This document shows, piece after piece, positions 16,770-49,828 of a stretch of 60,000 nucleotides of DNA (its first letter is position 1; every line of letters starts with the position of its first letter). Under the pieces are notes generated by a model. That model did not search any database and had not been told where the DNA came from. It saw only the letters and a program-made list of their open reading frames with translations. Source of the DNA: Paracoccaceae bacterium. Its GTDB lineage: Bacteria > Pseudomonadota > Alphaproteobacteria > Rhodobacterales > Rhodobacteraceae. The position numbers and the translations under genes were made by a program. The DNA lies in NCBI GenBank assembly GCA_019911965.1, contig JAIOJF010000020.1:1-60000 (forward strand), read 5' to 3'.

Positions 16770-17954
16770 ATGAACGACAAGACGGAAATCGAAATCTCGG
16801 TCCTTGGCAGCATTGCCGATATCGCCGGGGCCGACTGGGATGCGCTGGCCAATCCCGGCGGCGGCGTGCCGTTGGACCCGTTCACCACGCATCGTTTCCT
16901 GATGGCGCTGGAGGTCTCCGGCTCGGTCGGGGGAGGCACCGGCTGGACGCCTCGCCACCTGATCGCCCGGCGGGGCGGGCAGGTGCTGGCGGCGATGCCG
17001 TTGTACCTGAAGGGCCACAGCCAGGGCGAATACGTGTTCGATCATTCCTGGGCGCATGCCTATGAACGCGCGGGCGGTGAGTATTACCCCAAACTGCAGG
17101 CAGCGGTGCCGTTCACGCCTGCCACCGGTCGGCGCTTCCTGACCCGCGCGGGCGACGAGGCGCTGGGTGCGGCCGTATTGGCCGAAGGCGCGGTCAGGCT
17201 GGCGGCGGAGAACGGCCTGTCCTCGCTCCACATCACCTTCTGTACGGCGGCCGAGGCGAAGGCGGGCGCGGCTTTGGGCCTGATGCACCGCACCGGCCAG
17301 CAGTTTCACTGGCTGAACGACGGCTACACCGATTTCGCCGACTTCCTGTCGCGCCTGTCGTCGCGCAAACGAAAGGCGATCCGGCGTGAACGCGCACGCG
17401 CGCAGGCCTTCGGCGGCACCATCCGGCATTTGCGGGGCGAGGATATCCGCCCCGAGCGCTGGGATGCCTTCTGGCAATTCTACCAGGATACCGGCGCGCG
17501 CAAATGGGGCCGCCCGTATCTGACGCGCGGGTTTTTCGACGAGGTGCAGGCGCATCTGCGCGATGATGCGCTGCTGATCCTGTGCGAGCGGGATGGCCGC
17601 CCGGTGGCGGGCGCGCTGAACTTCATTGGTCGCGAGGCGCTGTTCGGGCGCTACTGGGGCTGTGTCGAGGATCACCCCTTCCTGCATTTCGAGACCTGCT
17701 ATTACCAGGCGATGGATTACGCCATTGCACATGGCCTTGCGCGCATCGAGGCCGGGGCGCAGGGCGAACACAAGCTGGCGCGGGGCTATCTGCCGGTGGC
17801 CACGCATTCGCTGCACTGGATCGCGGATGAGGGCTTTCGCCGCGCCGTGGCGCAATACCTGGAACAGGAACGCGCGGCGGTGGATGACGATATCGAAATC
17901 CTGACCAGCTATGGCCCGTTCCGCCGGGGCGGGGCCGAGGCGGAACAGGCGTAA
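16770..17954 (+). CDS. GNAT-like N-acyltransferase, DUF482 / FemAB-like (COG3146)
   Basis: A 394-aa protein of the DUF482 family (PF04339), related to FemAB/GNAT acyltransferases and sometimes labelled a peptidoglycan biosynthesis protein. Conserved stretches are the N-terminal DWDALANPGGG and FTTHRFLMALE, the middle LSSRKRKAIRRERARA, and the C-terminal FLHFETCYYQAMDYAIAHG followed by EAGAQGEHKLARGY. The substrate is unknown for the family. A 6-bp dyad (GTTTCC/GGAAAC, 17957-17973) lies right after the stop, without a T tract. It is the last gene before a 640-base non-coding stretch. Confidence 0.88.
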   Translation: MNDKTEIEISVLGSIADIAGADWDALANPGGGVPLDPFTTHRFLMALEVSGSVGGGTGWTPRHLIARRGGQVLAAMPLYLKGHSQGEYVFDHSWAHAYERAGGEYYPKLQAAVPFTPATGRRFLTRAGDEALGAAVLAEGAVRLAAENGLSSLHITFCTAAEAKAGAALGLMHRTGQQFHWLNDGYTDFADFLSRLSSRKRKAIRRERARAQAFGGTIRHLRGEDIRPERWDAFWQFYQDTGARKWGRPYLTRGFFDEVQAHLRDDALLILCERDGRPVAGALNFIGREALFGRYWGCVEDHPFLHFETCYYQAMDYAIAHGLARIEAGAQGEHKLARGYLPVATHSLHWIADEGFRRAVAQYLEQERAAVDDDIEILTSYGPFRRGGAEAEQA

Positions 17955-18047
17955 CTGTTTCCCAAGCGGAAACCAACTGTCCCGGCATTTTAGGGATTAG
18001 CCACGGCTAGGCCGCAATCGCTGCACCTTTCCGCCCTGATCGAGCGT

Positions 18048-18182
18048 CATACCAATCCCTGTAGCGAGCGAAGGCTCACCCCGGTGTTGCGGTTATCAGC
18101 CCCCACCCAGATCCGCGATGCCGGGGGCTACTATAAAACTGAAGAGCATCTGCCCCCGGCATGTTCGGGGGCATTTTTCTTT
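18048..18182 (+). ncRNA. Candidate small RNA, copy 1 of a tandem pair
   Basis: No gene fits here. An 84-base block (18048-18131) is repeated at 18360-18444 with two substitutions and one inserted A. Within it I see a short hairpin GAGC-GAAG-GCTC, a CACC/GGTG hairpin, and a larger AGCCCCC...GGGGGCT stem enclosing a C-rich/GATCC loop. A unique linker follows, then a perfect intrinsic terminator at 18151-18182. Conserved structured 5' part plus terminator on the same strand suggests an independently transcribed RNA. No clear promoter was found, and the element may instead be a dispersed palindromic repeat. Confidence 0.5.
18151..18182 (+). terminator. Intrinsic terminator of candidate sRNA copy 1
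   Basis: A perfect 8-bp stem (TGCCCCCG / CGGGGGCA) with a 7-base loop, followed directly by TTTTTCTTT. It is oriented for + strand transcripts only: the minus strand lacks a T run after the stem. Confidence 0.8.
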
Positions 18183-18359
18183 GGAACCCCAAATAGTTAA
18201 CAAATTGCACCGGCAGCTTTGCAGCGTTCAGGCCGCCCGCCTGCGAATCCTCGGTCCGTCTGCCGATTGTTTCCATATCCCCCACGCAGCGTTTCCGCGA
18301 ATCCGCGCTTTGCCACGCCGCTGCCCGAAACCGCGCAACTTTCTGCCGCGAACCACCGG

Positions 18360-18500
18360 CATACCGATCCCTGTAGCGAGCGAAGGCTCACCCCGGTGTC
18401 GCGGTTAATCAGCCCCCACCCAGATCCGCGATGCCGGGGGCTACGAAGGTTCAAGACTGCTCGAACTTCACCCCCCGGCCTGGTCCGGGGGTTTTCTTTT
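18360..18500 (+). ncRNA. Candidate small RNA, copy 2 of a tandem pair
   Basis: Second copy of the block at 18048 (about 82 of 85 positions identical). It is followed by a different linker that forms its own hairpin (GAAGGTTC with GAACTTC, one bulge) and by a different but similar terminator at 18472-18500. The pattern is conserved 5' block, divergent middle, and terminator with a re-made sequence but the same shape. It resembles duplicated regulatory RNA genes more than simple DNA duplication. The element starts 312 bases after copy 1 and ends about 95 bases before the M16 peptidase gene. Confidence 0.5.
18472..18500 (+). terminator. Intrinsic terminator of candidate sRNA copy 2
   Basis: A 7-bp perfect stem (CCCCCGG / CCGGGGG) with a 6-base loop followed by TTTTCTTTT. 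It lies upstream of the M16 peptidase start, so the peptidase needs a promoter between here and 18596. Confidence 0.8.
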
Positions 18501-18595
18501 GTCGCACGCAAAGTCACAACCGCGTTGATGGCGCTTGCCAGCGGGCGGCGCATCCTTACATTCGACCGGATGATTGACAGCCGGAGGCATTGCTC

Positions 18596-49753: not shown

Positions 49754-49828
49754 TGGTGGGCGTAACTGGGATTGAACCAGTGACCCCTTCGATGTCAACG
49801 AAGTGCTCTCCCGCTGAGCTATACGCCC
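49754..49828 (-). tRNA. tRNA-Val (anticodon GAC)
   Basis: Read on the minus strand. Acceptor GGGCGTA pairs with TACGCCC, and the D stem is GCTC/GAGC. The anticodon stem is CTTCG/CGAAG with loop TTGACAT, giving anticodon GAC (codon GUC). The T arm is ACTGG-TTCAATC-CCAGT. Discriminator A and an encoded CCA end it. All stems are complete, so it is a functional gene. It lies 61 bases upstream of rpmJ on the same strand. Confidence 0.96.

Follow-up and report, generated by a model that had tools for sequence, protein, structure and literature searches.

A tandem pair of candidate small RNA genes from a Rhodobacteraceae structured RNA family absent from Rfam 15

The window analyzed here is a 60,000-nucleotide stretch of a Paracoccaceae bacterium genome, in which two near-identical blocks are flanked on one side by a FemAB-like gene that ends at 17954 and on the other by an M16 peptidase frame, listed as beginning at 18590. 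A first-pass annotation of this DNA had read the blocks as candidate twin small RNAs. Alignment showed that the block at 18048-18131 is repeated at 18360-18444 with two substitutions and a single-base insertion across its 84/85 nt, and reproduced the spacing of 312 given in that annotation. Beyond the blocks, weaker similarity (79% over 99 nt) extends upstream to 17997/18309. The terminator scan also bore out the claim that each copy is followed by a separate linker and its own + strand terminator, and the M16 peptidase frame has a promoter-like site at 18535-18562, downstream of the second terminator. GTTTCC-type sequences were observed at 17955-17983 and 18267-18296, about 80-100 nt upstream of each core, as a GTTTCC...GGAAAC pair before copy 1 and two GTTTCC before copy 2; they occur similarly upstream of many RNA copies in the window's genus and are possibly a further regulatory site. 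A single tRNA gene at 49757-49828 (- strand) is the only feature of the window to reach an Rfam gathering score.

On the + strand, both units fold more strongly than their shuffles (z -4.28 for unit 1 and -3.44 for unit 2), and the - strand folds are weaker (z -1.80 and -1.68). Three hairpins had been proposed in the block, and folding resolved them into an outer stem of 5 bp and two hairpins of 4 and 14 bp, with the C-rich stretch GCCCCCACCC located in the loop of the 14-bp hairpin. The structured core of RNA 1 (18061-18131, + strand), defined by folding and by covariation of the 14-bp stem, comprises the outer stem 18061-18065/18127-18131, the short hairpin 18066-18077 and the 14-bp stem 18079-18092/18113-18126. 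The corresponding core of RNA 2 (18373-18444, + strand), defined in the same way, comprises the outer stem 18373-18377/18440-18444, the short hairpin 18378-18389 and the 14-bp stem 18391-18404/18426-18439. The loop motif itself occupies 18099-18108 in RNA 1 and 18412-18421 in RNA 2 (both + strand), as assigned from its position in the sequence and its conservation in relatives. Scanning the pair region for terminators revealed four terminator-like sites where 0.8 were expected. For RNA 1, the intrinsic terminator (18151-18180, + strand), a hairpin at 18151-18173 followed by TTTTTC, folded alone better than 200/200 shuffles (z -3.66). That of RNA 2 (18472-18498, + strand), a hairpin at 18472-18491 followed by TTTTCTTTT, was not unusual against shuffles when folded alone (z -1.45, 20/200 equally good). 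The two remaining sites lie at 18157-18142 (- strand) and 18251-18266 (+ strand). Transcription would run from about the GTAG opening each core to the terminator, with a predicted RNA 1 of about 120 nt (18061 to about 18180) and a predicted RNA 2 of about 126 nt (18373 to about 18498).

The first-pass annotation had proposed a search with covariance models from Rhodobacterales genomes, and a covariance model of the block found matches in 233 of 292 genomes of the order sample, covering 96 of 112 genera, and in 4 of 289 genomes of the class sample, all four in the window's family; both scans used strict filters and scored no more than the 16 best candidates of each genome, so that these counts are minimum figures and do not prove absence outside the family. 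All genomes listed from the order sample belong to the window's own family, with 39 genomes lacking a match unlisted, and most matching genomes hold one or two RNA copies. When copy 2 was used as a blastn query, 17 of 61 genomes matched, own genome included, and all nine other genomes of the same genus carried a tandem of two or three matches on a single contig, with spacings of about 210-250. Tandem pairs about 190 to 304 apart were also found outside the window's genus, and tandem arrays occur in several genera. The RNA was present in 15 of 22 loci that were chosen, among 80, so as to reach named genomes, and was not found in the chosen Maritimibacter, Amaricoccus, Falsirhodobacter, Profundibacterium, Tranquillimonas, Albimonas and Donghicola genomes of this set. 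Carriers include Roseivivax, Roseovarius, Pacificoceanicola, Litoreibacter, Oceaniovalibus, Thalassovita, Nioella, Yoonia, Jannaschia and Ruegeria, and it is from the carrier genome names that we call the family Rhodobacteraceae. Litoreibacter ascidiaceicola, Yoonia vestfoldensis SKA53 and Thalassovita litoralis are cultured carriers. A plasmid search gave no match to the RNA. In the viral collection, 80 of at least 120 stretches were searched with the model, yielding one strong match (68.2 bits) and one weak match (24.3 bits). The strong family member lies at 833-910 of a 6.9-kb contig (L207) that encodes none of the six neighbor proteins, and is either phage-borne or misassigned bacterial DNA.

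Compensatory base changes had been named in advance as support for an RNA, and they were abundant. In a 34-row set, both-sided changes were found in 12 of 23 pairs, the 54 double-sided change cells exceeded the shuffled mean of 13.8 (0/500 shuffles as high), and the signal was lost when the pairing partners were slid. A 52-row set, found and aligned by the covariance model but lying outside the rows used for building it, gave 110 double-sided changes against 37.5 in shuffles (0/500 as high), after L146, L149, L201, L203 and L206 had been left out as near-duplicates or overlapping. Pairing in the 14-bp helix reaches 98.2% in these 52 rows, and compensation is seen at 11 of its 14 pairs; the outer stem is 62% and the short hairpin 47% paired, and the short hairpin varies between forms of the RNA, so that only the long helix is claimed firmly. 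The loop GCCCCCACC is kept in 51/52 of the rows outside model building and GCCCCC[A/G]CC in 52/52. This count is fairer than that from alignment A1, whose rows were picked by the loop motif so that loop invariance there is partly selection, though the 52 rows were themselves found and aligned by the model. Four divergent loops, GCCCCCACCTT (L196, 477-545), GCCCCCACCAG (L204, 1749-1822), GCCCCCACCGA (L329, 1501-1576) and GCCCCCGCCGT (L330, 1501-1572), reveal the loop positions that can change.

A conserved promoter-like region ends just upstream of the structured part. In relatives it consists of an A-rich hexamer at -12 to -7 relative to the GTAG opening the core, and of four half-sites GCC-C-AAT, 11 bp apart, spanning -62 to -19. 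Among 53 elements outside the genus, [GT]CC triplets spaced 11, 22 and 33 apart exceed shuffles (z 20.7, 24.7 and 11.6, respectively), and lesser peaks occur at 3, 10 and 19 (z 4.8-6.2). At least three phased CC were found in 60/81 near regions versus 4/81 far regions, and the strict GCC-N8-GCC in 26/81 near versus 3/81 far regions (shuffle mean 1.6, largest 6). Three of the four half-site registers are matched in both window copies, and their distance from the RNA start equals that in relatives. GCC stands at 18000, 18011 and 18033 for copy 1 (18000-18035, + strand) and at 18312, 18323 and 18345 for copy 2 (18312-18347, + strand), and the third register is degenerate in each. The putative -10 elements are ATACCA at 18049-18054 (+ strand, -12 to -7 from GTAG, its A-rich positions conserved in relatives) and ATACCG at 18361-18366 (+ strand, position conserved in relatives). 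The ChvI-type direct repeat GCC-N8-GCC is present upstream of both copies; the GCC pattern by itself is common in this GC-rich window, with 14 matches against 5.4 expected.

Direct repeats of such spacing are typical of PhoB. They are likewise described as typical of OmpR-family regulators in passages of one report, where another member, CenR, is given TGA-N8-TGA with identical spacing (PMC9275681), and excerpts of a Sinorhizobium study give the ChvI motif as N-GCC-N8-GCC (PMC9731502). The half-site pattern is consistent with a regulator of the OmpR/PhoB family and with the reported ChvI motif, and the promoter pattern hints at an envelope-stress regulator. A response regulator of the OmpR/PhoB family, most likely ChvI, would control transcription of the RNAs. 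The window's own genome encodes a response regulator, a sensor kinase and an HPr kinase in the order chvI-chvG-hprK; the HPr kinase gene was assigned by family search, and we take the other two to be chvI-like and chvG-like. The 388 nt upstream of the chvI-like gene contain no GCC-N8-GCC on that gene's strand. Should the promoter reading be true, a conserved two-component system would be linked to a family-wide small RNA.

The RNA recurs at two main genomic sites, upstream of ggt (site 1) and beside DUF2794 (site 2). Gene context was checked for 90 loci (one further locus lacked the motif), which overlap so that the site counts are not independent: ggt follows directly downstream in 43, DUF2794 stands divergently upstream in 27, both are present in 11, and 9 fall elsewhere. 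The last nine are five own-genome copies, L101 and L105 with the site-1 STAS and HATPase genes upstream, L167 with ggt at a distance of 774 nt, and one viral-collection contig. The neighbors identified were ggt, STAS, HATPase, DUF2794 and NlpC/P60. At site 1, the usual upstream neighbors are STAS and HATPase_c_2 genes, presumably RsbV/RsbW-like, and several genomes of the window's genus combine both sites in a single locus.

The recurrence of site-1 copies about 80-200 nt upstream of ggt, together with a long hairpin followed by a C/U-rich tract at this site, would suit an element acting in cis on the downstream gene, as a leader or attenuator. A separate terminator was found after 0/40 site-1 elements and 0/3 of their upstream tandem partners, and after 21/34 site-2 elements and 2/2 window copies (shuffles about 0), in a scan that missed some longer-loop hairpins and counted one site-1-type row under site 2. 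Sixteen of the 21 terminator-bearing site-2 copies belong to the window's genus (16/20), the proportion outside the genus being 5/14. However, a promoter-like site separates the RNA from ggt in 27/40 site-1 loci, compared with 2.8% of single-base shuffles (13/40 loci lacked one in the same test), suggesting that the RNA is probably not simply a ggt leader. Site-2 and window copies also precede other genes, and many end in a terminator. We consider the leader explanation improbable.

Six copies of the RNA, window pair included, were detected by blastn in the window's own genome, where the sites are split, with one copy beside DUF2794 and two before ggt. The window pair and one more copy have none of the neighbors sought. 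Since the sites are split in this genome and the pair is at neither, the pair has probably been relocated. A search for the window site in relatives (80 contigs of unequal length around FemAB-like genes) gave three weak matches, the best with E 0.088. The two best other own-genome copies match 18265-18447 and 18265-18444 at 93%, ending 0-3 nt past the block. The similarity of the window pair to other own copies takes in the upstream region and the core and goes no further, as would fit a 5' part that was conserved while the terminators were made anew.

The first-pass annotation had itself allowed for a dispersed palindromic repeat, and would have taken many scattered copies without terminators as telling against RNA genes. 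REP elements begin with GTAG, as does the RNA core, and are known as many scattered copies. The four further own-genome copies do lack a recognized terminator, and three of the six lie away from the two recurring sites. Yet both window copies have terminators, and most matching genomes hold one or two copies at two recurring sites, with which a dispersed DNA palindrome, REP-like or mobile and devoid of RNA function, fits badly. Compensatory changes around a fixed loop, and promoter-like and terminator sequences in a single orientation, speak against it as well, and we regard it as very improbable. Membership among the REP elements, with their many scattered copies, was rejected given six copies here and one or two in most matching genomes. 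Window-type own-genome copies at L006 2196-2271, L007 2254-2329 and L008 2153-2227, in which a terminator was not recognized, are perhaps decaying.

As for function, the loop, kept open by the stem, may pair with G-rich mRNA stretches, probably around translation starts, a proposal modeled on the anti-Shine-Dalgarno loops of AbcR1 and NfeR1, which are described in excerpts of the respective reports as pairing with ribosome sites (PMC3712013, PMC10746234). Across 61 genomes, the perfect 10-nt loop complement was not clearly enriched (1087 versus 1007 control matches; mean difference 1.31 with se 0.84, in counts that retain the RNAs' own copies). Nine genomes, of which seven had been selected for low counts, were then examined further but were of little help, since the RNA did not show up in 7/9. 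Two specific candidates were considered. The own genome contains an 11-nt perfect loop complement in the GMGGGTG codons of ftsZ, but in 139 genomes searched (132 with a match) these codons were used in only 4/133 matches, from three genomes (G000, G030 twice and G306), and ftsZ was rejected as a target. The UpsM/mraZ upstream region, scanned over 400 nt before mraZ, contains a loop complement of at least 8 in 1/15 genomes (no start was found in L183, and that in L186 is doubtful), and is not supported as a partner. A universal perfect RNA partner for the loop was sought and not found; a dedicated partner may instead read a shorter stretch, or be a protein.

A loop that is near-fixed over 9 nt is constrained beyond what a general anti-Shine-Dalgarno role requires. 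Such constancy, the multiplication of copies in tandem arrays in several genera and the failure to find a universal perfect complement would all be expected of a decoy or ligand, with a loop reserved for binding one dedicated partner, either a protein or a single RNA, and with extra copies that raise the dose and titrate that partner. Set against this, no partner is known, and each RNA has one loop, whereas known protein sponges carry repeated sites. We hold the decoy or ligand explanation to be possible, if rather unlikely. Its fuller form, in which an envelope-stress RNA found throughout Rhodobacteraceae and governed by ChvI uses its loop for one dedicated partner and is amplified in tandem to raise the dose, making it a dedicated sponge or ligand and not a general anti-Shine-Dalgarno RNA, is speculative and slightly more doubtful still.

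Taken together, the compensatory changes, the near-fixed loop, the promoter-like region, the terminators, the synteny and the absence from Rfam favor two RNA genes over passive duplication, as the first-pass annotation had argued. The reading we prefer, and hold to be probable with some reservation, is that the pair are paralogous stand-alone small RNA genes of a Rhodobacteraceae family absent from Rfam, controlled by ChvI and pairing through the loop with G-rich mRNA sites. A structured RNA carried by 233/292 sampled genomes of a large and well-studied group is nonetheless missing from Rfam 15, and the covariance model allows others to annotate the family.

The window copies reached the cut-off of no Rfam 15 family, consistent with the failure of the first-pass annotation to name one; their sub-threshold matches were weak, and 12 relatives' loci gave no Rfam match at E 0.1. 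We recognized no description of the RNA among the papers listed by literature searches; an earlier report, for example among Paracoccus or Ruegeria small RNAs, may exist. Anti-hemB RNA (RF02837) matched both copies weakly (22.9 and 20.1 bits versus a cut-off of 49.5), and its pairs conflict with the covarying stem found here; membership was rejected on this score and the inconsistent fold. A parallel in arrangement is AbcR1/AbcR2 (ar15), described in excerpts of the source as homologous tandem small RNAs acting as independent units, with a C-rich loop on the 5' hairpin and a terminator at the end (PMC3712013); the window holds two units, each with a terminator and upstream half-sites. However, the ar15/AbcR loop is UCCUCCC and that of the window RNA GCCCCCACC(C), 1/85 elements carries TCCTCCC at 60 nt or less from the loop motif, and the gene neighbors differ. 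Membership in ar15/AbcR was rejected, as copy 2 scores 13.2 bits against the RF02345 cut-off of 40.

NfeR1 (ar14) resembles the RNA described here in retaining an identical loop motif while its stems diverge, according to parts of the report on it (PMC10746234). It differs in that ar14 has CCUCCUCCC in three hairpins, whereas the present RNA has one loop with another motif. This ar14/cuckoo motif, which lies in unpaired regions of those RNAs, was found in 0/85 elements here, as was CCTCCTCCC. CcsR RNAs carry CCUCCUCCC as their loop motif. The CcsR1-4 'cuckoo' RNAs also exist as several homologous copies, as here, but are reported to be co-transcribed with a DUF1127 gene, and the neighbors identified here are others. 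UpsM of Rhodobacter sphaeroides, reported in part of its source as a small RNA characteristic of Rhodobacteraceae (PMC5089854), is there described as part of the mraZ leader, unlike the RNA here. ChvR of Caulobacter, likened by description and not by sequence, is a small RNA under ChvI-ChvG control (excerpts of PMC6237742) and provides the model proposed for the present RNA; ChvR is reported there as C. crescentus-specific, whereas the RNA described here is family-wide, with its control by ChvI being predicted.
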